A DNA stretch of 64,000 nucleotides, from assembly GCA_037893245.1 (NCBI GenBank), contig JBAIAA010000698.1, forward strand, positions 248,001 through 312,000. Direction: 5' to 3'. The notes beneath the pieces were generated by a model that searched no databases, was not told where the DNA came from, and worked only from the letters and a program-made list of their open reading frames with translations. Below, one piece after another: positions 1 through 34,079 of this stretch (its first letter is position 1; each line of letters opens with the position of its first letter). The DNA comes from Crossaster papposus (Eukaryota; Echinodermata; Asteroidea; Velatida; Solasteridae). The position numbers were made by a program, and so were the translations under genes.

Positions 1-299
1 TAACGTTAACAAAAATATAGCATGTAAATTGTACATGTACTATAGGCATTACATTCCTTCTTATTCCTCCATGGTGTAAGCAACATACCAGATGCCTGTC
101 TGATTATAGTTTGGGTTATTCCTGCAATAAGCCAATTCACTATTTCCGCGGCGCAAGGCATGCTGGGTAAATTGTCAAAGGTCACGAAAGATAAACAAAT
201 TGCGTTGTCAGCGGTAAAACTCCCTTGCAAAAAACTAACGATAGTGTGGCAATTTCTGGGCATAACATGCGATATTTCTGTTTTGTTTTTTTAAGTAGA
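1..299. promoter_or_regulatory. Promoter-like upstream region
   Basis: No convincing gene is seen here. The stretch holds a CCAAT box (132-136, gCCAATtc), a CG-rich patch (146-153) and a ZNF143/Staf-like site (listed separately), a combination typical of animal promoters. It could drive a gene leaving to the left of the window or a transcript running right. The 85-codon frame on the minus strand across 6-263 has no recognisable motif and is treated as chance. A TACATGTA-type octamer lies near 31-40. Confidence 0.45.
152..169 (-). promoter_or_regulatory. ZNF143/Staf-like binding site
   Basis: The plus strand reads cgcaaggcatgctgggta; on the minus strand this is tACCCAGCATGCCTTGCG. It closely matches the long consensus bound by the zinc-finger factor ZNF143/Staf in animal promoters (CCCA-x-x-ATGC-x-TTGCG core), as recalled from the family. 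A CCAAT box lies 16 bp to its left. Which gene it serves is inference. Confidence 0.6.
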
Positions 300-336
300 A
301 TGGAAGATCTTACATTAGAACTTCTTAGAAGAGACA
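300..336 (+). CDS. Possible short first coding exon, ending at a GTAAGC donor
   Basis: An ATG at 300 opens 12 codons (MEDLTLELLRRD plus one base) and is followed by a good donor, GTAAGC, at 337. It lies about 130 bp downstream of the ZNF143-like site, where a first exon would be expected. It leaves in phase 1 and does not join in frame to the acceptor-like tag at 888-890 just before the transposase ATG, so any partner exon is unknown. This may be chance. Confidence 0.22.
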
Positions 337-893
337 GTAAGCACGTTCGTTTCCACAAATGACAACAAATTATCTAAAATACGGCGACGGTAACGGTGGT
401 CTAAACACATGTAAAAGATACGCGGGTGTACATGTATGTTTATCTTCGAAAAGCAGTCGTCAGGTCATGTAACGGACATGCGCAGTTGCAATAGTGAATC
501 AGCTTATTAAAAAAAAATAGCGTACATGCATAGAGTACTCGTCGTAAGTAAAAATAGTATAGTGGTCGAGTAGAGTACTAATAGTACTCGGTAGCCGTAC
601 TGCTTTTTATTTATTGTTGTATTTACTTTAATTTAGACCTCTGATTTATGTATTGTCAATCCTACAGTACTATAGGCTATAGTCGGAAGAGTATGCTTTT
701 ATAGCTCCCAATTTGGTTTGGTTAGTATTTTACTTTAGTTGAGTCTTTTCAAGCTTTTCCAGTATAAGGCCTAGGCTTTTTTTATGAGGTTTGGTTCCCA
801 GTAACTGTGAGCCCTTGGGACAACTGTGTACATGTATTAACAACGTTGCTTGTTAATTTGAACCGTTGTACTTGCACATACTCACTGTAGAGC
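337..893. other. Non-coding stretch upstream of transposase
   Basis: AT-rich sequence with no convincing coding frame. It contains a perfect short palindrome at 573-589 (arms gagtact/agtactc around aat) inside a patch with several agtactc words, and TACATGTA-type octamers near 429 and 831. A possible acceptor (ctcactgtag, ending 890) lies directly before the transposase start codon, so a 5' non-coding exon is possible. Confidence 0.5.
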
Positions 894-2879
894 ATGGAAA
901 AAGAGCAGTCTTGGTGGACACTGCGCCGTAGAGCCAGAGCTGAAGTGGATCGTCAAAATCAACAGAATGTAGAAATTGAACATGAACAAAATGAGTTGGG
1001 CCAAAACATACATGTAGAGGTAACCCATGTAGGTGACATTGAATCTGACAGCATAAATAATGATTTACATAATCATGATACAGTAGGAGGACTATCAGAC
1101 GTAGAGTCTGTTGTTGGTTTAGAATTGGATAGGCCAACTGAAGTTGTCAACAATTTAGGCATACTTTCTGATTCAGACAGTCTGGAGTTCGAGGGTGATG
1201 ATAATTTCAACCAAGAAGAATTTGAAAGGGCCCTGGAAAATAATATTGGCAGTGATGATGACAGTTTTGATGGAAATGATGACTTTGTCGAGGGTGATAG
1301 GCCTAATCCAGTTGTTGGTCTCGAGCAACGTTTGTCAAGGTGGGCCACTGAATTTCACAACCATGTGTCTCACGCTGCCCTTTCTGGTTTGTTAGCTACC
1401 CTTAGGCCTGATCATCCTAATCTCCCCAAAGATCCCAGGACACTTCTATCTACAGATGTCCGTCAAGATATAATAAGGTTAGCTGGTGGAGAGTACTACC
1501 ATTTTGGGATAAAAGAAAGTGTTTTAGCAAAGCTTTCATCATATCCCCGTGATTATACTGCTAATCTTTTGGAAATATCACTCGATATCAATATAGATGG
1601 TCTACCCCTCTTCAAGAGCTCCTCTGGTCAATTATGGCCTATTCTTGGTTTGATAAAAAACTTACCGGTGAAGGACCCGTTTGTCATAGGTATCTATTAT
1701 GGCATGAGAAAACCAGCTGATGTAACTGAGTATTTGTCATACTTTGTTGAGAATGTACGCTCCCTTGCAGAAAGTGGTCTGAACTTCTCAGGAATTAACT
1801 TCCCTGTAGTCATATCGGCTTTCATCTGTGATGCACCTGCTAGAGCGTTTCTCAAACAGATTAAGGGCCATTCAGGATATTATGCATGTGAGCGGTGCAC
1901 CCAGCGTGGAGTTTATTTGAAAAAGGTAACTTTTCCGTCAACTGATTCACCTCTACGGACTGATGAACTGTTTTCTGAAATGGCATATGAAAATCACCAA
2001 AGTGGGCGTTCTCCACTTTTGAACATACCTGCTGTAAAATTAGTGACACAGTTTCCATTAGACTATATGCATCTAATTTGTCTTGGTGTTACACGAAGAT
2101 TGATCTTGCTATGGAAGAGGGGTCCCTTAAGATGTCGCATCGGTGCTCAGTCTGTCGAGGAGATATCCGAGTTGTTAGTTTCACTGAAAGGTTTTGTCCC
2201 TCGAGAATTTGCCAGGAAGCCTAGGTCTCTAATGGAAAGTGATAGGTGGAAGGCGACCGAGTTTCGGCAGTTTCTGTTGTACTCGGGCCCAGTTGTGCTA
2301 TCACGAACCCTGCCTGATGCAATGTACAAGAACTTCTTGATTTTGTCAGTTGCAGTTCACATCTTGTTGAGTTCTCGCTTGTGTAAACCTACCCTTCTTG
2401 ATCATGCAAAAGTCCTTCTAGTGAATTTTGTTGAACATTTCGGCGACTTGTATGGGAAGGACAACATTGTTTACAATGTGCATAGTCTTATTCATGTTCC
2501 TCAGGATGCTGTTCAGTATGGGCCTCTAGACAATGTATCCGCCTTCCCTTTTGAGAACTATCTAGGGAAGCTAAAAACATTGGTCAGAAAACCCTCTCAA
2601 CCCTTGCAGCAAATTGTACGAAGGCTTTCTGAAAAAAGGGATCATGGTGTTGGTGGGCCAAAAAAGGTTGATCGTTTGAAGGGAAAGCATACAAATGGCC
2701 CTGTACCCCGAGAACTTTCTGATAATATTTGTCAGCAGTATCAAGAGCTAAATGGTAAATTTGGTTGCATAAAAATTACTTGCCATGCTGACAACTGTGT
2801 TGAAGTGCAGGGAAAGGTTGTTGTGGTTAAAAATATAGTTGTGCATGAGGGAACCGAGTACATTGTGTGTGAGGTTTAG
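894..2879 (+). CDS. CACTA-like (Tnp2/DUF4218-type) transposase, main frame
   Basis: A 661-codon frame encodes a DNA transposase of the animal CACTA/EnSpm-like type. It starts with a short basic segment (WWTLRRRAR, residues 7-15), then an acidic, Ser/Asp-rich stretch (about 44-135). The conserved body includes RWATEF (149-154), LPKDPRTLL (177-185), CDAPARAF (312-319), a Cys pair YACERC (C332, C335), DYMHLICLG (390-398), WKATEFRQFLLYSGP (452-466), YNVHSLIHV (527-535) and SAFPFENYLG (549-558). These blocks are recalled from invertebrate transposase-domain proteins. The acidic triad is not assigned. ATG 894 is taken because an in-frame stop lies at 888-890. The family's usual C-terminal end is missing here but appears in the next frame, so the copy is broken or carries a base error. 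Class assignment is less sure than 'transposase'. Confidence 0.85.
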   Translation: MEKEQSWWTLRRRARAEVDRQNQQNVEIEHEQNELGQNIHVEVTHVGDIESDSINNDLHNHDTVGGLSDVESVVGLELDRPTEVVNNLGILSDSDSLEFEGDDNFNQEEFERALENNIGSDDDSFDGNDDFVEGDRPNPVVGLEQRLSRWATEFHNHVSHAALSGLLATLRPDHPNLPKDPRTLLSTDVRQDIIRLAGGEYYHFGIKESVLAKLSSYPRDYTANLLEISLDINIDGLPLFKSSSGQLWPILGLIKNLPVKDPFVIGIYYGMRKPADVTEYLSYFVENVRSLAESGLNFSGINFPVVISAFICDAPARAFLKQIKGHSGYYACERCTQRGVYLKKVTFPSTDSPLRTDELFSEMAYENHQSGRSPLLNIPAVKLVTQFPLDYMHLICLGVTRRLILLWKRGPLRCRIGAQSVEEISELLVSLKGFVPREFARKPRSLMESDRWKATEFRQFLLYSGPVVLSRTLPDAMYKNFLILSVAVHILLSSRLCKPTLLDHAKVLLVNFVEHFGDLYGKDNIVYNVHSLIHVPQDAVQYGPLDNVSAFPFENYLGKLKTLVRKPSQPLQQIVRRLSEKRDHGVGGPKKVDRLKGKHTNGPVPRELSDNICQQYQELNGKFGCIKITCHADNCVEVQGKVVVVKNIVVHEGTEYIVCEV

Positions 2880-3072
2880 GACTTGCAGTGACTTTTTTGT
2901 GTATCCTATTCCTTCCCAGGAAATTGGGATTTTGAAAGTATCTGATTGTCACTGGCGAACTGAATTTACACGTGTGACAGAAATCACTGGGAAAGTTGTT
3001 CTTCTTCCTCTCATAGTTGCAGGTGGTCCAAGACAAACTTATGTAGCTGCCCCGTTTCTGCATTCACCGTAA
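2865..3072 (+). pseudogene. C-terminal end of the transposase in the +1 frame
   Basis: After the stop at 2,877-2,879, coding-like sequence goes on one base out of register: FRTCSDFFVYPIPSQEIGI, then ITGKVVLLPL and TYVAAPFLH, ending with TAA at 3,070-3,072. The pattern of an FF-x-YP-x-PS-x-x-x-GI block, then K-V-x-LP, then a PxLH end is how I recall this transposase family finishing. The upstream frame ends EYIVCEV, exactly where that block should begin, so I infer a single-base frame break between about 2,860 and 2,880. An alternative is a tiny intron, but I see no suitable site pair. Confidence 0.6.
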
Positions 3073-3312
3073 AATTTAGGTTATGTATGCTTTCTGCAAA
3101 TCTGTGGCTATGGCAATTTACATGTACATCATTGCTACACTACATTATATTATCATGCTGAAGTTACTCATTTCAATTTTTTGTAACTGGGAATTCAGGG
3201 AATTCACATCACATTTGTACACATTAACCCTGGTTGTGATGTCTGTTTATACAAACAAGATTGTGACTCCAACAATTATTTTAGTCCATTTATTACTTTT
3301 AAGGAAAAAATC
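3073..3312. other. Spacer between transposase and DUF4806-like gene
   Basis: About 240 bp of AT-rich sequence with no family match. A 100-codon frame crossing it (3,083-3,385) is hydrophobic, matches nothing I know and conflicts with the better-supported exon at 3,313. It must hold the transposase 3' end and the start of the next transcript. No clear TATA box or AATAAA is seen. Confidence 0.4.
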
Positions 3313-3541
3313 ATGGCTGATGAGCTTAAACAATACACGGTGGTTGAATTCACTAAAGAGGATCCAAAAGAGGTGGATGTTGTAGCCAGCAATTGGTTAC
3401 ACGCTTTTCGTTCAAGCGACTTGTGCAAAACCTTCTGGCCTCCAACCAAGAAGCAGGACACACTCAGGAAGCTGGTCATTCAGCGAACAGATCCAACTGA
3501 CTCTTGGATTGAGTGTGACGTCAGGGTTATGTTCAGCACAG
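3313..3541 (+). CDS. DUF4806-type gene, first coding exon
   Basis: Starts MADELKQYTVVEF in a good Kozak setting (atcATGG). It carries the family's N-terminal module: a V-V-E-F strand, an acidic turn, VVASNWL, then CKTFWPPTKK and a W-x-x-x-x-VRVMF strand. The exon ends at 3,541 before a GTATGA donor in phase 1. Without splicing the frame would run only to a stop near 3,609. Confidence 0.7.
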
Positions 3542-6500
3542 GTATGAACTGTTTCCTAAATTACTTCTTAAATTGTATGAATTTATCTAATTTCATTTGG
3601 AGTTTCTAATTTTTGATGAGATTTATTTAAATTATTTATTTAAAGGGGAATAATCTGGATGTACGAGTTCAAATTAGTACTGTGTTGTAGTACAATACTG
3701 TCACACAATACATTGTGTGACAGTATACAAATAATGAATGTTTATGAGTGCGATGGTAAGAATAATTTCATTCGGTGACAGAAGGCATGTTTTATTCCGC
3801 GAAGCAAAGCCCGAGTGGAATAAAATTCTTTCCATCACACGAATGTGAAACATTCATTTTTTGTTTTATACAATGCCTGAATAAATCAGCGTCAGCATCG
3901 CCTACGAGTTCAAATATTTCGTCGTCGGTTAAAAGAACAAACCGCGGCAGTTCGGGTAACTCGGCCGCCATGTGTCAATGACAGCGCTGCTGTAACGTCA
4001 CCACGTGGCAGTGACATTAGAGAAGGTCTTTTGGTTCTATCAATATATGCACCGTTTGATAGAACTATGTTTTATAACGTTTTGGGCGGTGCGGGTGATG
4101 GGTCGCATATAATTCCATGCACGTGGTACTGGACTTGCCCTCTGTATTCCTTTATTATTTTCAATTTACTTTCAGCAATCAGTTTGATTTGATTTTCATT
4201 CCTTCCAGATGAGCACAGAATATGCAAAATTAAGTTTGTAATGCTGTGGAGATGGCTAAGGTTTTTATTAAAAATACTACAGAAAGCCTGCAAAAGCCTG
4301 TTTTGAATAAATTCTACTGTAGGTATAAACACCTTCAAATTGCATGTATTTATTTAAAGTTTGCTTGTCAATTAGTGGCACCTTATATAGCACTGCTATA
4401 AGTGCAAACCAAAAGTGACAGAACCCTGCTCAGATTGCAATCATGTTTGAAACTTGTTTGTTGCAGTACTTGTTTTCATTGGGCATTACATACATGTACA
4501 AAACTGGCAACTTTCAGAAAGTGCAGCAAACTCAAGTCCCTGGATCCACTTCTATCTGACATAAAACGTGAGATTAGCACTGTGCTCTGATTACAAATGA
4601 TTTATAAAACCTAACATTTCAAACATTTTGTGCAGACCAAATCCAAGATATCACAGTGATAGCAGTTCAGAAGATGAAGTAATTCCACGTGCCAAGTCCC
4701 AGAAGAAATCGTCAGTACCTACAAGGCTTCCTGCTCCTCCAGCAATTTCATTTCAAACCCCAAAACGGCGCTTAGGATCGGCACCAAGTCCATTACCCTC
4801 AGGCTCTCAGCATTTCAGATCAGAAAGCCCGTGCACCTCCTCGTCGTTAGGCCTTTTATCAAGGTCTCCATCTCCAGCAGAAAGTGCAGGTAACTATGTC
4901 ATCATTGTAACGTGTTTTCATAGAAAAAAGTCTATATAAGATGTGTCCCAGAAAAAAACGTGTTGATTAATAGGATTCATCACAGCTTGTCTAGTACCAG
5001 TTAGCCAGTACAGTCAACTCTCGTTAATACAAACCCGACTCTGCATGTATGTGCACTGTGAATGGGACCGACTCTTCACCTAAATAAAAAAATTGATATG
5101 ACAAACACTTTTGCTAGATCTGGTTCAGTTTGTATTAAAGTGAGTCGACTGTATTGTCTTCTTCATTAATACAGATCTAAGATCAGTGAACGTCAAGTTG
5201 GAGGAGGTGAAACATGAACTGCGGGAGAACCGGAAGCTTATACGTGCTGTGCTCAACTTCCTTCGCAACCAGGAAGCAGATAAGGCTACAGAAGAGCATG
5301 GTCTTCCGGATGGTCTGGTTCTTCACCTCGTCTGAGCAACTTCAGCACCTTGAAGAACGCCTAGCAAAGGAGGCAGCTGTCCAGAAAACCATGGTACAAA
5401 TTTAACATGTACTCTTGATTTTAAAATAGCAGCTCTCACCGACATGAAATCTGAAGGTTGGTGGCACCTCACGACTCCAAGAACGCCAGGTGTACGTACG
5501 TGCTTGTTGCCGCGAAGTGTGTAGGCAGGTTTCGGTCACTTCGCCCATTTGCCACTTCGCATTTTACCACTTCACCCACGCGCCACTTCGCCCCCGCAAG
5601 TGTACAGATGGATAAACATGTATGATGTATCATGTACATGTATGTATGTACGCATCAGTCATTTACAAAGCAATTTGTTGACTTCAAACAAAATTTTGGC
5701 TTGCAGTACTGACTAAAAATGAAAAACATAAATCCCGATGCGCATTGGAGCTGGAGTTTCCCAAACTAATTGAATTCCATGATTGTAACAATGACCTGTG
5801 TTTAATTAGGTCAACATTTTGGAAAGTGGTTTTGTGAGTTACTACCTTGTTTTTGGTTGTAATCCCTTCTTTACACGTTAAAAGCTTGAAATAACAATGA
5901 TTTATGTATTGTGTGGGCCTAGCTAGCGCCTTGGTGAAATATTTCACATGTGGAAAATCCATCTAGTAACATGCAACATAAAAGTAGACATCATGCCGAT
6001 GATGGAAAGCGGTGAAGGTTCTGAATTAGCTCCATGAGTGGGTGTGTGCGCATGTGCTTACGTTTCTACACGTGCGTAAGAACTTGGGCATTGGCGAAGA
6101 GTGGCGAAAGTGCGGTTGCTGTTAGCAGGCAGAATTCAAAACTTGTACATGTAACCTGTACACAAAATGTTGTCAGTATCCTAAACATGCAAGGATATAT
6201 TTTTAATGAATATTTCCTCTTTTTTCAGGTCATGTACCTCAGTAAATGTGGGGGTCTCAATCTAAAGGATACCATTTCCCGTATTATGGGATCGCTTCTG
6301 ACACCCGAGGTAGCAGTTCTCTACAACTGGTGTGGGCAGCGTGGCCCTAAGCAGAAATTTTCTGGGCTGAAGGCGGTTGTGAATATGATATTTGGTAAGT
6401 ATAAAAATACTATAAATAAGGGTTTTCATTTCCCTGCGTAAAGTATTATTGTAATATTACAACTTGCTCAGTGCATTCAAGGGCAAGTGATGAAATTCAC

Positions 6501-7275
6501 AAGCTGCCCAGGTTTGTCGGGAAAGTATAACACTAACTTTACCATCACACTGACGCAAGATTATAACGATGGTCTAATTTATTCGTAGTCATGATTTTCA
6601 ACAAAATAAATTGTTTGAAGATATGGAATTTTGAGCCTTGTGCATCACTAGCACCGGACGTAAAAAGGTAATGAGGTTCACTTGTTACTAATTCCACAGA
6701 AGACAAACGATGAAGGGATAGATTTGTCTAGTTGTCATGGTATAGGAGGAATCAGATGTTTAGGAATATCAGGGCCACACAAGAGGATGTACAATGTATA
6801 TACATGTATACACGCTGCACACGCACAGTTTTTTCGAGATTCAAAACGGATGACGCATAAACACACCACTGGCAAGGCCAGAAAAGTCTGTCAGCAGTAA
6901 GCGAAACCAAAAATGTCATGGGTGTGCTTCCTGGTACAATCGGCCTGAACTCGCCTTGGATCGAGTTTCGTTAAAAATAGTCCTGCGCCTCGGTGAATGT
7001 TACAATAATCTCGGCGCAAACTGGGAAATGAAAACATTAAGTTGATTTACAATTTTTGGTTTTGTTTTCTTTCAGATTCTGTGTTGCGGAATATTCCGAC
7101 TTCTATGGTAAACTTAGCCCAAGTGGAGGAAGAGGTGCAAACATACCTCAAGTACGTCTATCAGAAGATACGCTACAACAAAGCACAGCGGAAGACGCAG
7201 ACAGGTGGGGTAAGAGGGGAAGCACCTGCAGATATGCCAGCACCGACACACAGCTCGGAATCTGATACCGATTAA
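3313..7275 (+). CDS. Spliced DUF4806-type gene (at least five exons)
   Basis: Conceptual exons: 3,313-3,541; 4,636-4,889; 5,175-5,393; 6,229-6,394; 7,076-7,275, totalling about 355 residues. The N-terminal module (YTVVEF, SNWL, FWPPTKK) and the C-terminal block (YLSKCGGLNLKDTISRIM, LYNWCGQRGPKQKFSGLK) are the hallmarks I recall for DUF4806 proteins, which often accompany transposase genes in invertebrates. The molecular role of the family is unknown; nucleic-acid binding or help in transposition is only inference. Donors are GTATGA, GTAACT, GTACAA and GTAAGT; acceptors end in CAG. Phases agree at the last three junctions (4,889/5,175; 5,393/6,229; 6,394/7,076) but not at the first, so an exon is probably missing from my model between 3,541 and 4,636. 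Exon 5,175-5,393 has a one-base frame break. The gene lies 240 bp downstream of the transposase on the same strand. Confidence 0.7.
3695..3726. repeat. Perfect 32-bp palindrome
   Basis: Two 15-bp arms (atactgtcacacaat and its exact reverse complement) around a 2-bp centre, ac. It directly abuts the foldback element at 3,733 and may be part of it, for example two inverted ends brought together. Confidence 0.85.
3733..3858. repeat. Imperfect foldback (MITE-like) element
   Basis: The left arm begins aatgaatgttt and the right arm ends aaacattcatt, its reverse complement. The match continues inward: a gtg-x-gatgg-x-aagaat block on the left pairs with attctttccatcac on the right. The centre (about 3,797-3,820) reads ccgcgaagcaaagcccgag. 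No coding capacity. A hairpin with 10-bp arms (gttctatcaa 4,034-4,043; ttgatagaac 4,056-4,065) lies 175 bp downstream and may belong to the same or a second small element. Confidence 0.6.
4034..4065. repeat. Hairpin, 10-bp perfect arms
   Basis: Arms gttctatcaa and ttgatagaac enclose a 12-base loop. It sits within the first intron of the DUF4806-type gene. Its role is unknown; it may be the remnant of a small inverted-repeat element. Confidence 0.6.
4636..4889 (+). CDS. DUF4806-type gene, Ser/Pro-rich middle exon
   Basis: Encodes a low-complexity linker: PNPRYHSDSSSEDEVIP, then many Ser, Pro and basic residues (LPAPPAIS, KRRLGSAPSPLPSG, SRSPSPAES). Acidic-Ser followed by Ser-Pro linkers are usual between the two conserved ends of DUF4806 proteins. 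The acceptor ends at 4,635 (ttttgtgcag) and the donor is GTAACT at 4,890, leaving phase 1, which matches the next exon. The true 5' border could instead be 4,671, which would fit exon 1 directly. Confidence 0.6.
5011..5151. mobile_element. pogo/Tigger-like MITE, 141 bp
   Basis: Terminal inverted repeats: left cagtcaactctcgttaat, right attaaagtgagtcgactg, imperfect over about 24 bp. TA dinucleotides flank both ends (5,009-5,010 and 5,152-5,153), the target duplication typical of Tc1/mariner-pogo elements. There is no coding sequence. It lies in an intron, ending about 22 bp before the acceptor at 5,174. Its ends resemble those of the remnant near 8,439. Confidence 0.8.
5175..5393 (+). CDS. DUF4806-type gene, coiled-coil exon with a frame break
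   Basis: Phase-1 entry gives DLRSVNVKLEEVKHELREN, then RKLIRAVLNFLRN and GLPDGLVLHL, a helical segment typical of the part just before the DUF4806 domain. After HL the frame meets TGA, but one base further along the sequence reads SSEQLQHLEERLAKEAAV, which is the expected continuation, and exits in phase 0 at GTACAA. I infer one extra base, or two missing, near 5,317-5,325. It may be a real mutation or a consensus error. Confidence 0.6.
5394..6228 (+). other. Intron with CACTTCGC-type repeats
   Basis: An 835-bp intron between GTACAA and a strong pyrimidine-rich acceptor (cctcttttttcag). It contains a short direct-repeat cluster (5,537-5,592) and, 500 bp further on, the same words inverted (6,091-6,116). 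No exon is needed here because the phases on either side already agree. Confidence 0.6.
5537..5592. repeat. Four copies of (c)cacttcgcc at 15-16 bp spacing
   Basis: Copies start near 5,538, 5,553, 5,569 and 5,584 (cacttcgccc, cacttcgcat, cacttcaccc, cacttcgccc). The reverse-complement words ggcgaag and ggcgaaagtg occur at 6,093-6,112. Together they could be the subterminal repeats of a small element of about 575 bp within this intron; that is inference. Confidence 0.5.
6229..6394 (+). CDS. DUF4806 domain exon
   Basis: Encodes YLSKCGGLNLKDTISRIM, GSLLTPEVAVLYNWCGQRG and PKQKFSGLKAVVNMIF. This is the core signature of DUF4806: a YLS-x-x-GG turn, an NLKD helix, an LLT helix, the Y-N-W-x-G motif and a K-x-F-x-x-LK helix. 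Entry phase 0, exit phase 1 at a consensus GTAAGT. This exon is the strongest single piece of evidence for the family. Confidence 0.8.
6395..7075 (+). other. Intron, 681 bp
   Basis: It runs from GTAAGT to a pyrimidine-rich acceptor (gttttctttcag). No recognisable coding or repeat element. It includes a TACATGTA-type octamer near 6,802 (tatacatgtatac). Frames inside it, for example 6,682-6,900, show no family match. Confidence 0.65.
7076..7275 (+). CDS. DUF4806-type gene, last exon
   Basis: Phase-1 entry gives DSVLRNIPTSMVNLAQVEEE, then VQTYLKYVYQKIRYNKAQRK and a low-complexity tail ending SSESDTD, stop TAA at 7,273-7,275. A final helix with a YL-K-x-x-x-x-K-x-R pattern after the core is what I recall for the end of DUF4806 proteins. 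Confidence 0.65.
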
Positions 7276-7575
7276 TAATGCGAGCAGACGACGTTACGGT
7301 TAAATTTTGGCTTTTTAGATGAAGATAATTAGAAGCTTTTTCAGTGCTTTTGTTTTTATTCCATTCACTATATTAATCTGGTTACATAACGACTTACTAG
7401 GTTTTACCTGATCAAACCAATTGCACAATCAAACATTATTTTGACTTATTAGGTATTTCCAGATTACATGTTGGTTTAAAAAATGCATTTACATTTTGTC
7501 AGTGTATATTGTGTTATATTGTGTATGCGTAAGCTTCATACTTTTGTATAAAGGGGCTTGCTTTAATTCCCTGGG
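7276..7575. other. 3' flank of the DUF4806-type gene
   Basis: AT-rich with no coding signal. No AATAAA lies close to the stop. The nearest candidates downstream are ATTAAA at 7,868-7,873 and AATAAA at 7,905-7,910, beyond the foldback element, so a transcript ending there would carry the foldback in its 3' UTR. Confidence 0.4.
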
Positions 7576-7816
7576 CTATAGACGATGTGCCTCTGTTTAC
7601 ATCTGTATTCAAATGTGCCTGGCAGTATGCGCACGCATCATGTTTTACATACATTTGGTCAAGAGTTGACATCAGGTCACATAATTCAAAGGCGATCTGA
7701 CCTGCGACGTCACTCTTTAAGCAAACTTTATGTAAAACACGATGGGTGCGCATCACTGCCGGGCACATTTGAATACAGATGTAAACACGTGACGTCAGAG
7801 GAAACATCGTCTATAA
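7576..7816. mobile_element. Foldback element (MITE-like), about 240 bp
   Basis: Nearly the whole stretch folds on itself. Outer arms are ctatagacgatg (7,576-) and catcgtctataag (-7,816); further in, tttacatctgtattcaaatg pairs with catttgaatacagatgtaaa, and gttttacata pairs with tatgtaaaac. The match continues weakly to the centre near 7,696 (gagttgacatcaggtca against tgacctgcgacgtcactc). Both strands therefore have short spurious frames (7,514-7,807 minus, 7,585-7,836 plus). No target duplication was identified. Class unknown. Confidence 0.75.
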
Positions 7817-8325
7817 GAAAGGGTTGCCTAAGTTGAGAGACTTAAAAAAGTTCAAAGAAACCCCCCAAATTAAAGATTGTTTTTCTTACAATAATCATAT
7901 CTACAATAAAATGCATTTTGGGGATTTATTTTAACTTGTTCACGTCTCCCATGTTAGGTAACCTTTAACTACTTTTTCGCCCAATTTATGGACACACCAT
8001 TTTCCCTAGTTTTGGTTTGCTGGGCTAAATATCACAATGTTATCATTGTTCATAATGATTTTCAATAAGGTTTTAATATGATAACTGTGCCAGTAAGCAA
8101 GTTGGTGAATTTGAAGCTCACCAATACTGACTACTTGATGGTGTAATGTGCGCACATTTATGGGTTCACAAAGTTGTCATTTTGGATCATTACTATGTTT
8201 ATACATGTATAATTATTTAGTCACTTGTATGTTTTAGAAAATGTTATTGAAGTAAGAATAATAGTAGAATCACCAAAATAAACTTTAAAAAAAAATAAAA
8301 AAATATTATACCCAAATACATGTAT
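7817..8325. other. AT-rich non-coding DNA
   Basis: No gene seen. It contains possible poly(A) signals (7,905-7,910; 8,277-8,282), a small hairpin (ttggtga 8,102-8,108 / tcaccaa 8,118-8,124), an A-rich run near 8,286-8,302 and TACATGTA-type octamers near 8,205 and 8,317. Confidence 0.5.
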
Positions 8326-8439
8326 AGGAATATCCGTTTTCGTTATAAGCGAATATTTTCCCATAGAAACGTGCACAGTTTTGCCGGGACCAAGGATAAT
8401 TTTCGTTATATCCGTTTTCGTACTAACGGGAGTCGACTG
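8326..8439. mobile_element. Truncated pogo/Tigger-like MITE remnant
   Basis: The right end reads actaacgggagtcgactg followed by TA (8,440-8,441). It is the same kind of terminus as in the element at 5,011-5,151, whose end is agtcgactg/cagtcaact. Repeated words ccgttttcgtta and ttcgttata on both sides suggest an old inverted-repeat element whose left terminus is lost; the left flank begins tataggaatatccg and the right flank tataggaatacat. Confidence 0.6.
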
Positions 8440-8441
8440 TA

Positions 8442-8940
8442 TAGGAATACATTGTACATGTAAATATATTACGCGGCAGGGATTAACGATTTATGCAAAT
8501 TAGTCATATTTCCACCACTTTGATTTTGTTAGTGTGTCTAACTAGAGACATATAGTAGAAGTGCACTGTGGTAAAAAATATTATATTGCAATTTGTGCGA
8601 GATCAAAACTTATTTTACCTGGACTGAATTCTTAATCAACTCCGATCGTGTTTATTTTAGAATAATATTTATAGGCAAGGATTGTTTAAAGAATCTTAAT
8701 ACATATAGATGTATAGAGGGACAAAATCGTCCATAATCCTTGGCTGCCAGGCTTTTTTACCTGGCAGTACAAATGACCGTCGATTTCATTTGCAGTATTC
8801 TGTACGTTGTTGGATATAAAATATTGGTTTTTAAATAAACATGAATTACCAGAATATGTTGCATTTATCTATTTAATTACATTTTAAGGAAAAGATAAGT
8901 GGTGACAACACCAGACTATATCGCCTGAAACTGGTCGTTT
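8442..8940. other. Non-coding DNA before the ACGT cluster
   Basis: AT-rich, no gene recognised. It holds a hairpin at 8,744-8,767 (ctgccagg / cctggcag around an 8-base T-rich loop) and a small one near 8,901 (ggtg-acaa-cacc). A TACATGTA-type octamer lies at about 8,455. Confidence 0.45.
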
Positions 8941-8942
8941 TT

Positions 8943-9177
8943 ACGTCATGTTATCACGTGAAAAAGACGGAAAATGTTTTCCAGTAAAAGACGTCATTAT
9001 CACTTTGTTATTACGTGATAAAGACGTCGTATTTTGACCTATAAGACGTAATTATCACGTGAAACGTACAACGTGTTTATGACGTCTTACATCTGTGCAA
9101 ATTTACGTCATAAAGACGTCATCTGAAGACGTCTTAAAGACGTGTAACACGACGTGATAAACACGTGTTTTTTACGT
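8943..9177. repeat. Phased ACGT cluster (17 cores in 235 bp)
   Basis: ACGT begins at 8943, 8956, 8991, 9013, 9024, 9046, 9057, 9064, 9071, 9082, 9105, 9116, 9129, 9140, 9152, 9163 and 9174. Apart from one 7+7 step and one of 35, the spacings are 11-13 or 22-23 bp, so it behaves as a degenerate 11-12-bp tandem repeat with words such as aagacgtc, atcacgtg and ttacgtcat. Such arrays resemble bZIP/bHLH site clusters (TGACGTCA, CACGTG) or the subterminal repeats that CACTA-type transposases bind. It ends 16 bp before the satellite. Confidence 0.8.
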
Positions 9178-9603
9178 GTTTCTGCTATCAGGGATGATGT
9201 CAAAATTGATGTCAAAAATGATGTCAAAAATGATGTCAAAAATGATGTCAAAAATGATGTCAAAAATGATGTCATAAATGATGTCAAAAATGATGTCAAA
9301 AATGATGTCAAAAAAGATAATTTCAGGACAGAAATAGACACCTGATGTCGGAACAAGCCCTCGAGTTAAATATGTTAAGGGAAAGAAGTGTGCATTATAA
9401 ATGTTCAGTCTTACAATCAAAAATGATGTCAAAAATGATGTCAAAAATGATGTCAAAACTGATAATTTCAGGACAGAAATAAACACCTGATGTCGGAACA
9501 AGCCCTCGAGTTAAATATGTAAAGGGAAAGAAGTGTGCATAAGAAATAAACACCTGATGTCGGAACAAGCGCTCGAGTTAAATTTGTAAAGGGAAAGAAG
9601 TGT

Positions 9604-9654
9604 CCTGATGTCGGAACAAGCCCTCGAGTTGAATATGTTAAGGGAAAGAAGTGT
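9604..9654 (+). repeat. Example of the 51-bp T junction monomer
   Basis: Here aagtgt runs straight into cctgatgtcgg: 16 bp (gcataagaaataaaca) of the S monomer are missing. The monomer before the deletion usually reads aatttgtaaa rather than aatatgtaaa, and the one after it carries gttaaggg in every case I checked. The same junction recurs throughout the array, for example near 10,065, 11,460, 13,170, 25,240, 36,630 and 63,390, so it arose once and was spread by duplication. Confidence 0.85.
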
Positions 9655-9658
9655 GCAT

Positions 9659-9811
9659 TTTAAATTTTCAGTCTTACAGTCAAAAATGATGTCAAAAATG
9701 ATGTCAAAAATGATGTCAAAAATGATGTCAAAAATGATGTCAACAATTATGCCAAAAATTATGTCAAAAATTATGTCAAAAATGATAATTTCAGGACAGA
9801 AATAGACACCT
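9659..9811 (+). repeat. Long monomer type with decayed 12-bp tail (catttTAAAT leader)
   Basis: The leader tttcagtcttacagtc is followed by five regular aaaaatgatgtc units. A fixed irregular tail follows (caacaattatgcc, then two aaaaattatgtc units), ending aaaaatgataatttcagg and acagaaatagacacctg. This diagnostic tail recurs near 11,590, 14,070, 17,890, 18,735, 22,540, 25,390, 29,370, 35,970, 40,700, 42,700, 45,510, 47,500, 51,520, 54,665, 57,470 and 59,460. The number of regular units before it varies. Confidence 0.9.
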
Positions 9812-12065
9812 GATGACGGAACAAGCCCTCGAGTTAAATATGTAAAGGGAAAGAAGTGTGCATAAGCAATAAACACCTGATGTCGGAACAAGCCCTAGAG
9901 TTAAATATGTAAAGGGAAAGAAGTGTGCATAAGAAATAAACACCTGATGTCGGAACAAGCCCTCGAGTTAAATATGTAAAGGGAAAGAAGAGTGCATAAG
10001 AAATAAACACATGATGTCGGAACAAGCCCTCGAGTTAAATTTGTAAATGGAAAGAAGTGTCCTGATGTCGGAACAAGCCCTCGAGTTAAATATGTTAAGG
10101 GAAAAAAGTGTGCATTATAAATGTTCAGTCTTACAGTCAAAAATGATGTCAAAAATGATGTCAAAAATGATGTCAAAAATGATAATTTCAGGACAGAAAT
10201 AAACACCTGATGTCGGAACAAGCCCTCGAGTTAAATATGTAAAGGGAAAGAAGTGTGCATAAGAAATAAACACCTGAGGTCGGAACAAGCCCTCGAGTTA
10301 AATATGTAAAGGGAAAGAAATGTGCATAAGAAATAAACACCTGATGACAGAACAAGCCCTCGAGTTAAATATGTTAAGGGAAAGAAGTGTGCATAAGAAA
10401 TAAACACCTGAGGTCGGAACAAGCCCTCGAGTTAAATATGTAAAGGGAAAGAAGTGTGCATAAGAAATAAACACCTGATGACGGAACAAGCCCTCGAGTT
10501 AAATATGTTAAGGGAAAGAAGTGTGCATAAGAAATAAACACCTGATGTCGGAACAAGCCCTCGAGTTAAATATGTAAAGGGAAAGAAGTGTGCATAAGAA
10601 ATAAACACCTGATGTCGGAACAAGCCCTCGAGTTAAATATGTAAAGGCAAAGAAGTGTGCATAAGAAATAAACACCTGCTGTCGGAACAAGCCCTCGAGT
10701 TTAATTTGTAAAGGGAAAGAAGTGTCCTGATGTCGGAACAAGCCCTCGAGTTAAATATGTTAAGGGAAAGAAGTGTGCATTTTTAATTTACAGTAAAAAA
10801 TGATGTCAAAAATGATGTAAAAAATGATGTCAAAAATGATGTAAAAAATGCTGTCAAAAATGAGGTCAAAAATGATGTCAAAAATGATGTCAAAAATGAT
10901 GTCAAAAATGATGTCAAAAATGATGTCAAAAATGATGTCAAAAAAGATAATTTCAGGACAGAAATAGACACCTGATGTCGGAACAAGCCCTCGAGTTAAA
11001 TATGTTAAGGGAAAGAAGTGTGCATTATAAATTTTCAGTCTTACATTCAAAAATGATGTTAAAAATGATGTCAAAAATGATGTCAAAAATGATGTCAAAA
11101 ATGATGTCAAAAATGATGTCAAAAATGATGTCATAAATGATGTCAAAAATGATGTCAAAAATGATGTCAAAAAAGATAATTTCAGGACAGAAATAGACAC
11201 CTGATGTCGGAACAAGCCCTCGAGTTAAATATGTTAAGGGAAAGAAGTGTGCATTATAAATGTTCAGTCTTACAATCAAAAATGATGTCAAAAATGATGT
11301 CAAAAATGATGTCAAAACTGATAATTTCAGGACAGAAATAAACACCTGATGTCGGAACAAGCCCTCGAGTTAAATATGTAAAGGGAAAGAAGTGTGCATA
11401 AGAAATAAACACCTGATGTCGGAACAAGCGCTCGAGTTAAATTTGTAAAGGGAAAGCAGTGTCCTGATGTCGGAACAAGCCCTCGAGTTGAATATGTTAA
11501 GGGAAAGAAGTGTGCATTTTAAATGTTCAGTCTTACAGTCAAAAATGATGTCAAAAATGATGTCAAAAATGATGTCAAAAATGATGTCAAAAATGATGTC
11601 AACAATTATGCCAAAAATTATGTCAAAAATTATGTCAAAAATGATAATTTCAGGACAGAAATAGACACCTGATGTCGGAACAAGCCCTCGAGTTAAATAT
11701 GTAAAGGGAAAGAAGTGTGCATAAGAAATAAACACCTGATGTCGGAACAAGCCCTAGAGTTAAATATGTAAAGGGAAAGAAGTGTGCATAAGAAATAAAC
11801 ACCTGATGTCGGAACAAGCCCTCGAGTTAAATATGTAAAGGGAAAGAAGAGTGCATAAGAAATAAACACATGATGTCGGAACAAGCCCTCGAGTTAAATT
11901 TGTAAATGGAAAGAAGTGTCCTGATGTCGGAACAAGCCCTCGAGTTAAATATGTTAAGGGAAAGAAGTGTGCATTATAAATGTTCAGTCTTACAGTCAAA
12001 AATGATGTCAAAAATGATGTCAAAAATGATGTCAAAAATGATAATTTCAGGACAGAAATAAACAC

Positions 12066-12132
12066 CTGATGTCGGAACAAGCCCTCGAGTTAAATATGTA
12101 AAGGGAAAGAAGTGTGCATAAGAAATAAACAC
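12066..12132 (+). repeat. Example of the 67-bp S monomer
   Basis: A clean copy: ctgatgtcggaacaagccc, then tcgagttaaatatgta, then aagggaaagaagtgtgcat and aagaaataaacac. The next copy starts exactly 67 bp later. It contains one XhoI site (CTCGAG) and two CpGs. Because 67 is not a multiple of three, three successive copies are read in three frames, which gives the recurring 63-codon minus-strand frames. Recurrent variants: ctgaggtcgg, gatgacgg, ccctagag, cctcgattt, gttaaggg and gaagagtgc. Confidence 0.95.
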
Positions 12133-15100
12133 CTGATGTCGGAACAAGCCCTCGAGTTAAATATGTAAAGGGAAAGAAGTGTGCATAAGAAATAAACACC
12201 TGAGGTCGGAACAAGCCCTCGAGTTAAATATGTAAAGGGAAAGAAATGTGCATAAGAAATAAACACCTGATGACAGAACAAGCCCTCGAGTTAAATATGT
12301 TAAGGGAAAGAAGTGTGCATAAGAAATAAACACCTGAGGTCGGAACAAGCCCTCGAGTTAAATATGTAAAGGGAAAGAAGTGTGCATAAGAAATAAACAC
12401 CTGATGACGGAACAAGCCCTCGAGTTAAATATGTTAAGGGAAAGAAGTGTGCATAAGAAATAAACACCTGATGTCGGAACAAGCCCTCGAGTTAAATATG
12501 TAAAGGGAAAGAAGTGTGCATAAGAAATAAACACCTGATGTCGGAACAAGCCCTCGAGTTAAATATGTAAAGGCAAAGAAGTGTGCATAAGAAATGAACA
12601 CCTGCTGTCGGAACAAGCCCTCGAGTTTAATTTGTAAAGGGAAAGAAGTGTCCTGATGTCGGAACAAGCCCTCGAGTTAAATATGTTAAGGGAAAGAAGT
12701 GTGCATTTTTAATTTACAGTCAAAAATGATGTCAAAAATGATGTCAAAAATGATGTCAAAAATGATGTAAAAAATGCTGTCAAAAATGAGGTCAAAAATG
12801 ATGTCAAAAATGATGTCAAAAATGATGTCAAAAATGATGTCAAAAATGATGTCAACAATTATGCCAAAAATTATGTCAAAAATTATGTCAAAAATGATAA
12901 TTTCAGGACAGAAATAGACACCTGATGTCGGAACAAGCCCTCGAGTTAAATATGTAAAGGGAAAGAAGTGTGCATAAGAAATAAACACCTGATGTCGGAA
13001 CAAGCCCTAGAGTTAAATATGTAAAGGGAAAGAAGAGTGCATAAGAAATAAACACCTGAGGTCGGAACAAGCCCTCGAGTTAAATATGTAAAGGGAAAGA
13101 AGTGTGCATAAGAAATAAACACCTGATGTCGGAACAAGCCCTCGAGTTTAATTTGTAAAGGGAAAGAAGTGTCCTGATGTCGGAACAAGCCCTCGAGTTA
13201 AATATGTTAAGGGAAAGAAGTGTGCATAAGAAATAAACACCTGATGTCGGAACAAGCCTTCGAGTTAAATATGTAAAGGGAAAGAAGTGTGCATAAGAAA
13301 TAAACACCTGATGTCGGAACAAACCCTCGAGTTAAATATGTAAAGGGAAAGAAGTGTGCATAAGAAATAAACACCTGATGTCGGAACAAGCCCTCGATTT
13401 AAATATGTAAAGGGAAAGAAGTGTGCATAAGAAATAAACACCTGATGTCGGAACAAGCCCTCGAGTTAAATATGTTAAGGGAAAGAAGTGTGCATTATAA
13501 ATTTTCAGTCTTACATTCAAAAATGATGTTAAAAATGATGTCAAAAATGATGTCAAAAATGATGTCAAAAATGATGTCAAAAATGATGTCAAAAATGATG
13601 TCATAAATGATGTCAAAAATGATGTCAAAAATGATGTCAAAAAGATAATTTCAGGACAGAAATAGACACCTGATGTCGGAACAAGCCCTCGAGTTAAATA
13701 TGTTAAGGGAAAGAAGTGTGCATTATAAATGTTCAGTCTTACAATCAAAAATGATGTCAAAAATGATGTCAAAAATGATGTCAAAACTGATAATTTCAGG
13801 ACAGAAATAAACACCTGATGTCGGAACAAGCCCTCGAGTTAAATATGTAAAGGGAAAGAAGTGTGCATAAGAAATAAACACCTGATGTCGGAACAAGCGC
13901 TCGAGTTAAATTTGTAAAGGGAAAGCAGTGTCCTGATGTCGGAACAAGCCCTCGAGTTGAATATGTTAAGGGAAAGAAGTGTGCATTTTAAATGTTCAGT
14001 CTTACAGTCAAAAATGATGTCAAAAATGATGTCAAAAATGATGTCAAAAATGATGTCAAAAATGATGTCAACAATTATGCCAAAAATTATGTCAAAAATT
14101 ATGTCAAAAATGATAATTTCAGGACAGAAATAGACACCTGATGTCGGAACAAGCCCTCGAGTTAAATATGTAAAGGGAAAGAAGTGTGCATAAGAAATAA
14201 ACACCTGATGTCGGAACAAGCCCTAGAGTTAAATATGTAAAGGGAAAGAAGTGTCCTGATGTCGGAACAAGCCCTCGAGTTAAATATGTTAAGGGAAAGA
14301 AGTGTGCATTATAAATGTTCAGTCTTACAGTCAAAAATGATGTCAAAAATGATGTCAAAAATGATGTCAAAAATGATAATTTCAGGACAGAAATAAACAC
14401 CTGATGTCGGAACAAGCCCTCGAGTTAAATATGTAAAGGGAAAGAAGTGTGCATAAGAAATAAACACCTGATGTCGGAACAAGCCCTCGAGTTAAATATG
14501 TAAAGGGAAAGAAGTGTGCATAAGAAATAAACACCTGAGGTCGGAACAAGCCCTCGAGTTAAATATGTAAAGGGAAAGAAATGTGCATAAGAAATAAACA
14601 CCTGATGACAGAACAAGCCCTCGAGTTAAATATGTTAAGGGAAAGAAGTGTGCATAAGAAATAAACACCTGAGGTCGGAACAAGCCCTCGAGTTAAATAT
14701 GTAAAGGGAAAGAAGTGTGCATAAGAAATAAACACCTGATGACGGAACAAGCCCTCGAGTTAAATATGTTAAGGGAAAGAAGTGTGCATAAGAAATAAAC
14801 ACCTGATGTCGGAACAAGCCCTCGAGTTAAATATGTAAAGGGAAAGAAGTGTGCATAAGAAATAAACACCTGATGTCGGAACAAGCCCTCGAGTTAAATA
14901 TGTAAAGGCAAAGAAGTGTGCATAAGAAATGAACACCTGCTGTCGGAACAAGCCCTCGAGTTTAATTTGTAAAGGGAAAGAAGTGTCCTGATGTCGGAAC
15001 AAGCCCTCGAGTTAAATATGTTAAGGGAAAGAAGTGTGCATTTTTAATTTACAGTCAAAAATGATGTCAAAAATGATGTCAAAAATGATGTCAAAAATGA

Positions 15101-15426
15101 TGTCAAAAATGATGTAAAAAATGCTGTCAAAAATGAGGTCAAAAATGATGTCAAAAATGATGTCAAAAATGATGTCAAAAATGATGTCAAAAATGATGTC
15201 AACAATTATGCCAAAAATTATGTCAAAAATTATGTCAAAAATGATAATTTCAGGACAGAAATAGACACCTGATGTCGGAACAAGCCCTCGAGTTAAATAT
15301 GTAAAGGGAAAGAAGTGTGCATAAGAAATAAACACCTGATGTCGGAACAAGCCCTAGAGTTAAATATGTAAAGGGAAAGAAGAGTGCATAAGAAATAAAC
15401 ACCTGAGGTCGGAACAAGCCCTCGAG

Positions 15427-16992
15427 TTAAATATGTAAAGGGAAAGAAGTGTGCATAAGAAATAAACACCTGATGTCGGAACAAGCCCTCGAGTTTAATT
15501 TGTAAAGGGAAAGAAGTGTCCTGATGTCGGAACAAGCCCTCGAGTTAAATATGTTAAGGGAAAGAAGTGTGCATAAGAAATAAACACCTGATGTCGGAAC
15601 AAGCCTTCGAGTTAAATATGTAAAGGGAAAGAAGTGTGCATAAGAAATAAACACCTGATGTCGGAACAAACCCTCGAGTTAAATATGTAAAGGGAAAGAA
15701 GTGTGCATAAGAAATAAACACCTGATGTCGGAACAAGCCCTCGATTTAAATATGTAAAGGGAAAGAAGTGTGCATAAGAAATAAACACCTGATGTCGGAA
15801 CAAGCCCTCGAGTTAAATATGTAAATGGAAAGAAGAGTGCATAAGAAATAAACACCTGATGTCGGAACAAGCCCTCGATTAAAATATGTAAAGGGAAAGA
15901 AGTGTGCATAAGAAATAAACACCTGATGTCGGAACAAGCCCTCGAGTTAAATATGTAAATGGAAAGAAGAGTGCATAAGAAATAAACACCTGATGTCGGA
16001 ACAAGCCCTCGAGTTAAATTTGTAAATGTAAAGAAGTGTCCTGATGTCGGAACAAGCCCTCGAGTTAAATATGTTAAGGGAAAGAAGTGTGCATTGTAAA
16101 TGTTCAGTCTTACAGTCAAAAATGATGTCAAAAATGATGTCAAAAATGATGTCAAAAATGATAATTTCAGGACAGAAATAAACACCTGATGTCGGAACAA
16201 GCCCTCGAGTTAAATATGTAAAGGGAAAGAAGTGTGCATAAGAAATAAACACCTGATGTCGGAACAAGCCCTCGAGTTTAATTTGTAAAGGGAAAGAAGT
16301 GTCCTGATGTCGGAACAAGCCCTCGAGTTAAATAGGTTAAGGGAAAGAAGTGTGCATAAGAAATAAACACCTGATGTCGGAACAAGCCTTCGAGTTAAAT
16401 ATGTAAAGGGAAAGAAGTGTGCATAAGAAATAAACACCTGATGTCGGAACAAACCCTCGAGTTAAATATGTAAAGGGAAAGAAGTGTGCATAAGAAATAA
16501 ACACCTGATGTCGGAACAAGCCCTCGATTTAAATATGTAAAGGGAAAGAAGTGTGCATAAGAAATAAACACCTGATGTCGGAACAAGCCCTCGAGTTAAA
16601 TATGTAAATGGAAAGAAGAGTGCATAAGAAATAAACACCTGATGTCGGAACAAGCCCTCGATTAAAATATGTAAAGGGAAAGAAGTGTGCATAAGAAATA
16701 AACACCTGATGTCGGAACAAGCCCTCGAGTTAAATATGTAAATGGAAAGAAGAGTGCATAAGAAATAAACACCTGATTTCGGAACAAGCCCTCGAGTTAA
16801 ATTTGTAAATGGAAAGAAGTGTCCTGATGTCGGAACAAGCCCTCGAGTTAAATATGTTAAGGGAAAGAAGTGTGCATTGTAAATGTTCAGTCTTACAGTC
16901 AAAAATGATGTCAAAAATGATGTCAAAAATGATGTCAAAAATGATAATTTCAGGACAGAAATAAACACGTGATGTCGGAACAAGCCCTCGAG
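15427..16992 (+). repeat. 783-bp tandem duplication
   Basis: Copy one is about 15,427-16,209 and copy two about 16,210-16,992, sharing the same series of variants (tttaatttg, gccttcgag, aaaccctcg, cctcgattt, cctcgattaaaa, gaagagtgc). Few differences were noticed, for example aatatgtt versus aataggtt near 16,335. The second copy recurs with offset 3,020-3,032 at about 19,230-20,640. Confidence 0.8.
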
Positions 16993-19075
16993 TTAAATAT
17001 GTAAAGGGAAAGAAGTGTGCATAAGAAATAAACACCTGATGTCGGAACAAGCCCTCGAGTTAAATATGTAAAGGGAAAGAAGTGTGCATAAGAAATAAAC
17101 ACCTGAGGTCGGAACAAGCCCTCGAGTTAAATATGTAAAGGGAAAGAAGTGTGCATAAGAAATAAACACCTGATGACGGAACAAGCCCTCGAGTTAAATA
17201 TGTTAAGGGAACGAAGTGTGCATAAGAAATAAACACCTGATGTCGGAACAAGCCCTCGAGTTAAATATGTAAAGGGAAAGAAGTGTGCATAAGAAATAAA
17301 CACCTGATGTCGGAACAAGCCCTCGAGTTAAATATGTAAAGGGAAAGAAGTGTGCATAAGAAATAAACACCTGATGTCGGAACAAGCCCTCGAGTTAAAT
17401 ATGTAAGGGTAAAGAAGTGTTCATAAGAAATAAACACCTGATGTCGGAACAAGCCCTCGAGTTAAATATGTAAAGGGAAATAAGTGTGCATAAGAAATAA
17501 ACACCTGATGTCGGAACAAGCCCTCGAGTTAAATATGTAAAAAGAAAGAAGTGTGCATAAGAAATAAACACCTGATGACGGAACAAGCCCTCGAGTTCAA
17601 TATGTTAAGGGAAAGAAGTGTGCATAAGAAATAAACACATGATGTCGGAACAAGCCCTCGAGTTAAATATGTAAAGGGAAAGAAGTGTGCATAAGAAATA
17701 AACACCTGATGTCGGAACAAGCCCTCGAGTTAAATATGTAAAGGGAAAGAAGTGTCCTGATGTCGGAACAAGCCCTCGAGTTAAATATGTTAAGGGAAAG
17801 AAGTGTGCATTTTAAATTTTCAGTCTTACAGTCAAAAATGATGTCAAAAATGATGTCAAAAATGATGTCAAAAATGATGTCAAAAATGATGTCAACAATT
17901 ATGCCAAAAATTATGTCAAAAATTATGTCAAAAATGATAATTTCAGGACAGAAATAGACACCTGATGTCGGAACAAGCCCTCGAGTTAAATATGTAAAGG
18001 GAAAGAAGTGTGCATAAGAAATAAACACCTGATGTCGGAACAAGCCCTAGAGTTAAATATGTAAAGGGAAAGAAGTGTGCATAAGAAATAAACACCTGAT
18101 GTCGCAACAAGCCCTCGAGTTAAATATGTAAAGGGAAAGACGAGTACATAAGAAATAAACACATGATGTCGGAACAAGCCCTCGAGTTAAATTTGTAAAT
18201 GGAAAGAAGTGTCCTGATGTCGGAACAAGCCCTCGAGTTAAATATGTTAAGGGAAAGAAGTGTGCATTATAAATGTTCAGTCTTACAGTCAAAAATGATG
18301 TCAAAAATGATGTCAAAAATGATTTCAAAAATGTTAATTTTAGGACAGAAATAAACACCTGATGTCGGAACAAGCCCTCGAGTTAAATATGTAAAGGGAA
18401 AAAAGTGTGCATAAGAAATAAACACCAGATGTCGGAACAAGCCCTCGAGTTAAATATGTAAAGGGAAAGAAGTGTGCATAAGAAATAAACACCTGATGTC
18501 GGAACAAGCCCTCGAGTTAAATATGTAAAGGAAAATAAGTGTGCATAAGAAATAAACACCTGATGTCGGAACAAGCGCTCGAGTTAAATTTGTAAAGGGA
18601 AAGAACTGTCCTGATGTCGGAACAAGCCCTCGAGTTAAATATGTTAAGGGAAAGAAGTGTGCATTTAAAATGTTCAGTCTTACAGTCAAAAATGATGTCA
18701 AAAATGATGTCAAAAATGATGTCAAAAATGATGTCAACAATTATGCCAAAAATTATGTCAAAAATTATGTCAAAAATGATAATTTCAGGACAGAAATAGA
18801 CACCTGATGTCGGAACAAGCCCTCGAGTTAAATATGTAAAGGGAAAGAAGTGTGCATAAGAAATAAACACCTGATGTCGGAACAAGCCCTATAGTTAAAT
18901 ATGTAAAGGGAAAGAAGTGTGCATAAGAAATAAACACCTGATGTCGGAACAAGCCCTCGAGTTAAATATGTAAAGGGAAAGAAGAGTGCATAAGAAATAA
19001 ACACCTGAGGTCGGAACAAGTCCTCGAGTTAAATATGTAAAGGGAAAGAAGTGTGCATAAGAAATAAACACCTGA

Positions 19076-22000: not shown

Positions 22001-22260
22001 CCTGATGTCGGAACAAGCCCTCGAGTTAAATATGTAAGGGTAAAGAAGTGTTCATAAGAAATAAACACCTGATGTCGGAACAAGCCCTCGAGTTAAATAT
22101 GTAAAGGGAAATAAGTGTGCATAAGAAATAAACACCTGATGTCGGAACAAGCCCTCGAGTTAAATATGTAAAAAGAAAGAAGTGTGCATAAGAAATAAAC
22201 ACCTGATGACGGAACAAGCCCTCGAGTTCAATATGTTAAGGGAAAGAAGTGTGCATAAGA
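19076..22260 (+). repeat. About 1,599-bp tandem duplication
   Basis: Markers repeat at a constant offset of 1,599 (for example aaaccctcg and cctcgattaaaa blocks, and the aaaaagagtgc variant at 19,633 and 21,232). The junction lies near 20,675, where a monomer with gatgacgg is joined to the block that begins near 19,076, as in an unequal crossover between monomers in register. Confidence 0.8.
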
Positions 22261-22349
22261 AATAAACACATGATGTCGGAACAAGCCCTCGAGTTAAATA
22301 TGTAAAGGGAAAGAAGTGTGCATAAGAAATAAACACCTGATGTCGGAAC

Positions 22350-30340: not shown

Positions 30341-30349
30341 AAGTGTGCA

Positions 30350-33920: not shown

Positions 33921-34079
33921 TTTTCAGTCTTACAGTCAAAAATGATGTCAAAATTGATGTCAAAAATGATGTCAAAAATGATGTCAAAAATGATGTCAAA
34001 AATGATGTCAAAAATGATGTCAAAAATGATGTCAAAAATGATGTCAAAACTGATAATTTCAGGACAGAAATAAAAACCT

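Follow-up and report, generated by a model that had tools for sequence, protein, structure and literature searches.

The ACGT cluster at the edge of the satellite

The locus raises the question of how a phased cluster of ACGT words is related to the satellite array that begins directly after it. The window (the whole stretch of 64 kb analysed here) contains 17 ACGT cores between positions 8,943 and 9,177, with core-to-core spacings of 13, 35, 22, 11, 22, 11, 7, 7, 11, 23, 11, 13, 11, 12, 11 and 11 bp, and the cluster ends 16 bp short of a sharp boundary at 9,193, with satellite beyond. In 2,000 dinucleotide-preserving shuffles of the segment 8,930-9,193, ACGT occurred 6.6 times on average and at most 13 times, and the preceding 8.9 kb had a mean of 0.89 and a maximum of 4 per 264-bp window. 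The best period of the cluster was 11.5 bp (power 10.6), which none of 2,000 random placements equalled. The cluster and its phasing, as described in the original prediction, therefore withstood both the shuffle and the random-placement tests. That prediction had further proposed that the 12-bp TGATGTC repeats of the satellite are an expanded, CpG-decayed descendant of the cluster, which might itself be the subterminal region of a transposon or a cluster of bZIP sites.

Extent, termini and copies of the transposon

A search for the cluster segment gave seven additional copies elsewhere in the genome, spread over five contigs besides C698 (C397, C53, C17 with three, C192 and C355). All seven reach the same tip, where homology stops at ...CTGCTATCAGGG and different DNA follows, although two of the C17 copies, at 510 kb and at 908 kb, have part of their flank in common; in the other direction, the homology covers most of the window's left part. 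The inverted repeat CCCTGATAGCAGA, which begins with CCC, is present at both ends of the transposon, and the termini have the form CCCTGATAGCA. In the 10 kb read upstream of the window, the left terminus (CCCTGATAGCAGACTGACGTCG...) was located at C698:246940, with satellite on its left; with both termini located, the element is 10,254 bp long, 9,193 bp of which lie in the window (Table 1). Since the cluster ends at the inverted repeat, the other end carries an ACGT cluster of its own and the flanks of the copies differ, the proposed subterminal location was borne out. We consider it quite probable that a 10.25-kb TRC-type (CACTA/EnSpm-related) transposon has inserted in a pre-existing satellite and that the cluster, its right subterminal region, provides putative docking sites in the form of ACGT rungs.

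Table 1. Features of the C698 transposon and its surroundings (window positions unless a contig or locus is named)
Feature	Position	Strand	Remarks
TRC-type DNA transposon	1..9193 in window; 10,254 bp total	+	both termini and homologous copies on other contigs
Whole transposon	C698:246940-257193		
Upstream 1,061 bp of the transposon	C698:246940-248000 = L027:8940-10000		outside window
Transposase frame, 662 aa, first Met at 894	891..2876	+	D236, D314, C333-x2-C336, H531-x3-H535, E555
Transposase C-terminal stretch	2872..3066	+	out of frame with 891-2876 here; protein match to C955 relative
Second gene, conserved stretch 1, 72 aa	3328..3543	+	47% identity to C955 element; predicted gene model
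Second gene, conserved stretch 2, 30 aa	5150..5239	+	50% over 34 columns to C955 element; predicted
Second gene, conserved stretch 3, 62 aa	6211..6396	+	48% identity to C955 element
Second gene, conserved stretch 4, 40 aa	7051..7170	+	52.5% identity to C955 element; predicted
Right subterminal ACGT ladder (end A)	8943..9177	.	17 cores, 11.5-bp period
Right terminal inverted repeat	9181..9193	-	reads CCCTGATAGCAGA; left partner at C698:246940
Target site duplication AT, 2 bp, right copy	9194..9195	.	left copy directly before C698:246940
12-bp/67-bp satellite array	9194..64000	+	tandem repeats; empty-site match; predates insertion

It was also noticed that at C53:958756-959300 (L003, L019) end A adjoins an inverted 505-bp piece of end B; this piece is the start of a second copy, whose remainder comes next in the forward direction, and TA stands at each of the two junctions. 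This structure looks like a small inversion produced by reversed-ends transposition that paired the ends of two neighbouring copies; transpositions pairing the ends of neighbouring copies are described in the accessible part of the literature on maize Ac/Ds.

Insertion into a pre-existing satellite

The left flank of the element ends in ...GTCAAAAAT and the right flank starts with ATGATGTC. When the two flanks were joined with one AT removed, the product aligned without a gap, at 99.5% over 600 bp, to an uninterrupted stretch of the left array (L027:2028-2627), while removal of 0, 1, 3 or 4 bases gave a gap in the best match every time. This gap-free empty site, obtained with exactly AT removed, indicates that the array is older than the insertion and that the duplication is AT. 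Duplications of 2 bp were found in all five insertions with both ends read, namely AT in C698, TT in C397, TA in C355, AT in C955 and CA in C146, the two ends of the last (401 bp) being paired by position. The C146 element (L061:201-601) has ends of different types, CCCTGATAGCAGGC and CCCTGATAGCATTG, with CA on both sides. A strict TA target as in Tc1/mariner was rejected, because the duplications include AT, TT and CA. Misassembly is common in satellite arrays, and the junction of cluster and satellite could in principle be an artefact of this kind; we regard this as very improbable, since both junctions fall exactly at the termini and are accompanied by the AT duplication and the gap-free empty site, unlike a chance misjoin.

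The TGATGTC repeats themselves are real, yet they are not the whole unit of the array, being one component of a larger 12-bp/67-bp satellite. In the whole genome there are 58,406 occurrences of a 22-base word from the 67-bp unit and 8,909 of a 24-base word from the 12-bp repeat, and neither a 16-mer nor a 20-mer of the satellite occurred in a text search of the literature. The 27 ACGT words of the array (window 9194-64000) all share one context, AAACACGTGATG, which differs by one base from the 67-bp unit (AAACACCTGATG) and has spread within the array.

Descent of the 12-bp unit from the ACGT cluster was suggested by the similar words, by the junction in step at 23 bp and by the presence of CpG-decayed cores in other copies of the transposon. 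CpG decay is indeed seen at certain cores of other copies (a GACGTC is GATGTC in C53) and makes the likeness of cluster and satellite words natural, but it gave no evidence of descent. The distance of 23 bp, from the start of the last core at 9,174 to the first satellite ATGT at 9,197, was confirmed, but it is no sign of kinship: the distance of the last core from the transposon tip is fixed (17 bp here, 16 in the C192 copy), so the phase is only the register in which the tip landed in the 12-mer, and 3 of the 12 possible registers would give a value within 1 bp of 23. The phase match is thus a coincidence. Against descent stand 1) the satellite on both sides of the transposon together with the empty-site match, 2) the flanks of other copies, as none of three satellite words was found near nine other copies (11 loci, L002-L008, L039, L041, L043 and L044, with about 1.5 kb of flanking DNA beyond the end that was read), nor in longer flanks that were checked, 3) the first 4 kb of the array, which gave no BLAST match to the element, and 4) the array in the window, in which TGATGTCAA occurs 764 times and TGACGTCAA not once, so that there are no ACGT-form intermediates of the 12-mer, set against the abundance of the satellite words genome-wide. 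We therefore give practically no credence to a satellite born from the cluster, and the order of events, array then transposon, replaces this appealing story.

Transposase and second gene

The transposase frame has 69 matching places in the genome. In an alignment of seven members, two of which (L052 and L054) are near-identical, the residues D236, D314, C333, C336, H531, H535 and E555 are invariant, and all seven contain TRC box I and box A, which were present in none of 2,000 shuffled versions of the window protein. With these boxes present, Pfam Transposase_21 (PF02992) gave no match to the transposases at E 1 or 0.1; DUF4218 matches six of the seven members, the match of the window protein being below the curated cut-off, and the alignment profile gave no match to PDB sequences at E 1. 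A comparison was made with an element on C955, the transposase of which is 62% identical to that of C698 and is continuous across the C-terminal break point, but changes frame at a more upstream position. As the frame in C698 is interrupted near the C-terminus, this copy is probably not autonomous.

Four transposase matches with 43-44% identity and open frames of 727-729 aa without stops were found at C423:100707-119287, within 19 kb and on one strand, three of them with equal score. As a separate observation on the assembly, contig C8, which is longer than 5 Mb, has a match to the COX1 family at C8:5208663-5210009 (L048) with a stop-free frame of 682 aa, in addition to the cox1 of the mitochondrial contig C1841; C8 is possibly a bacterial chromosome in the assembly. 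The cox1 on C1841 has 7 AAA codons, and those at familiar Asn positions make sense when AAA is translated as Asn (table 9); frames resembling nad4L and cox2 come after it, and this code and gene order suggest an echinoderm.

Downstream of the transposase, four stretches are conserved in the C955 element in the same order and on the transposase strand, with 47-53% protein identity. From this conservation we infer a second gene. The frame around stretch 3 is weakly DUF4806-like (Pfam E 0.078, below the cut-off), and the product could be a ladder-binding protein.

The ladder at both ends and its conservation

At both ends of the C698 element, the first rungs are 17 and 28 bp from the tip. Counted from the tip, the cores of end A are at 17, 28, 39, 51, 62, 75, 86 and so on, and those of the left end (end B) at 17, 28, 54, 68, 79, 90 and so on, with a best period of 12.0 bp (p 0.0045). 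The density of ACGT is 0.88 per 264 bp in the interior versus 14.0 and 9.1 within the terminal 320 bp of the two ends. When 15 ends from several families were pooled, 49 of 117 successive spacings were exactly 11 bp, and a core was located within one base of 17 in 13 ends and within one base of 28 in 12, with eight of the 15 ends having been found with a pattern that contains the core at 17. Both rungs are present in five of the other seven ends; the exceptions are end B of the short C355 element, where 159 and 211 are the sole core positions, and the end at C17:908333, which has no rungs at 17 and 28.

The tip pattern, at up to two mismatches, had 113 matches in the genome versus 36 for the reversed control. 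Thirteen loci were chosen among the matches listed (the first 100 of the 113), and seven of these, with eight ends, entered the pooled table. In the six unpooled loci (L062, L065, L066, L069, L070 and L073), a core is present at 17 in all six and at 28 in four, and these loci are unbiased only from position 28 on, because the pattern includes the ACGT at 17. L062 and L065-L070, seven loci near CCCTGATAGCAGGCACACGT (of which L067 and L068 belong to the pooled table), are not independent, since about 20 or more bases beyond the presumed tip are common to them; either all are copies of a single composite repeat, or their true tips are further out.

Comparison of end A with the left end of the C955 element, which required no gaps, revealed differences at 1 of 36 core bases versus 33 of 75 other bases (p 2e-6). 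For end B and the C955 right end, 3 of 12 core and 18 of 35 other bases were changed (p 0.18), and for the two C955 ends, 4 of 12 and 13 of 35 (p 1.0), neither being significant; the two C698 ends gave a marginal difference (6 of 16 versus 22 of 31, p 0.03). On these alignments, conservation of the cores is strong for one pair of ends and is unproven for the others. In older copies of the A family, cores were only slightly less changed than the rest (7/65 versus 27/182, 9/65 versus 32/177 and 4/53 versus 20/155). For a relative on C717 with 44% transposase identity, no ladder was found within about 5-6 kb on either side, and its ends were not found there.

Comparison with known transposons

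TRC elements are animal relatives of CACTA/EnSpm; according to the accessible part of the paper that describes them (PMC1636069), they have terminal repeats starting with CCC, 2-bp duplications and a transposase with box I and box A, motifs that describe the Transposase_21 domain in animals. The CCC start, the 2-bp duplication and both boxes are common to SmTRC1 of Schistosoma mansoni, the Tribolium and Aedes TRCs and the C698 element. In our own comparison, 2 of the first 11 bases differ between the terminal repeats of the Tribolium TRC and the C698 element, and an Aedes element, at 9.2 kb, is similar in size; SmTRC1 is about 4.5 kb long and has a 54-bp terminal repeat with an internal repeated motif, the sequence of which is unlike ours (PMC1636069). 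The same part of the paper describes no subterminal ladder and does not contain the word subterminal. We place the C698 element, with its regularly built ends, among the TRC transposons as a further member.

Transposases of the CMCT clade have D, D, C(2)C, H(3-4)H and E in this order (PMC12730594, accessible part), which matches the residue order in C698, and the 2-bp duplication is within their range of 2-5 bp. In contrast, the termini of the C698 element are CC..GG (CCC..GGG) and not CA..TG as in most CMC/CMCT members, and the C698-type duplications are AT, TT, TA and CA, whereas those of ESTA, in the same material, are TA only. Plant CACTA elements need TNPA in addition to the transposase, and TNPA recognises motifs that recur in their subterminal regions (PMC2613891, accessible part). 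The subterminal regions of En/Spm and Tgmt* are asymmetric and repetitive, as here, and the En-1 motif is 12 bp long. The plant elements have two functions, transposase and DNA-binding TNPA, and the product of the second gene might take the binding role here. The plant elements differ in having CACTA termini, a 3-bp duplication in Tgmt* and other motifs (PMC2613891); as the C698 termini are CCCTG and not CACTA, and the duplication is 2 bp and not 3 bp, membership in the plant-type CACTA group was rejected. Literature searches on related ladders and on echinoderm EnSpm elements gave nothing relevant among the matches listed, and a text search with the 12-base terminal repeat gave matches only in four papers that, in their accessible parts, were of unrelated subject.

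Possible function of the ladder

By analogy with the TNPA-bound repeats of plant En/Spm, the most likely role of the ladder is to offer proteins encoded by the transposon a series of binding sites. Either the transposase or the second-gene product would occupy the ACGT rungs, which follow one another at roughly one helical turn along a single face of the DNA, the bound protein would coat and pair the two transposon ends, and the DDE transposase would cut at CCC/GGG and join the ends to a target staggered by 2 bp. Among 50 cores in four ends, 16 are CACGTC/GACGTG, 10 are GACGTC and 6 are CACGTG; the rungs are palindromic cores with variable flanks, which fits binding by a dimer. Since each rung contains a CpG, binding could be methylation-sensitive, although this is speculative.

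The ladder might instead consist chiefly of host bZIP/bHLH sites that drive transcription of the transposon genes, as many of the 50 cores lie in words that we take to be CRE-like or E-box-like. We consider this unlikely, because the ladder is counted from the tip at both ends and also in short derivatives such as C146, and because the flanks vary, with no single host consensus dominant. Dual use, in which such a host role accompanies docking, is possible. Returning to docking by transposon proteins, a wider proposal is that these TRC families share a two-component end machine, in which a one-helical-turn ACGT ladder counted from the tip is bound cooperatively by a DUF4806-like protein of the second gene, with the rung CpGs acting as a methylation switch on mobility. 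We advance it tentatively, as doubtful but with some chance of being right.

The original TRC paper reported a sea urchin transposase match, the ends of which could not be characterised (PMC1636069, accessible part); for the present TRC element, from a probable echinoderm, both ends and their regular architecture are now described, as are 2-bp duplications and a conserved second gene. The ladder yields a testable prediction on end recognition by animal CACTA-type transposons, and the two-component machine, if true, would be the animal counterpart of maize TNPA and its subterminal repeats, built from an unrelated protein and an unrelated motif.
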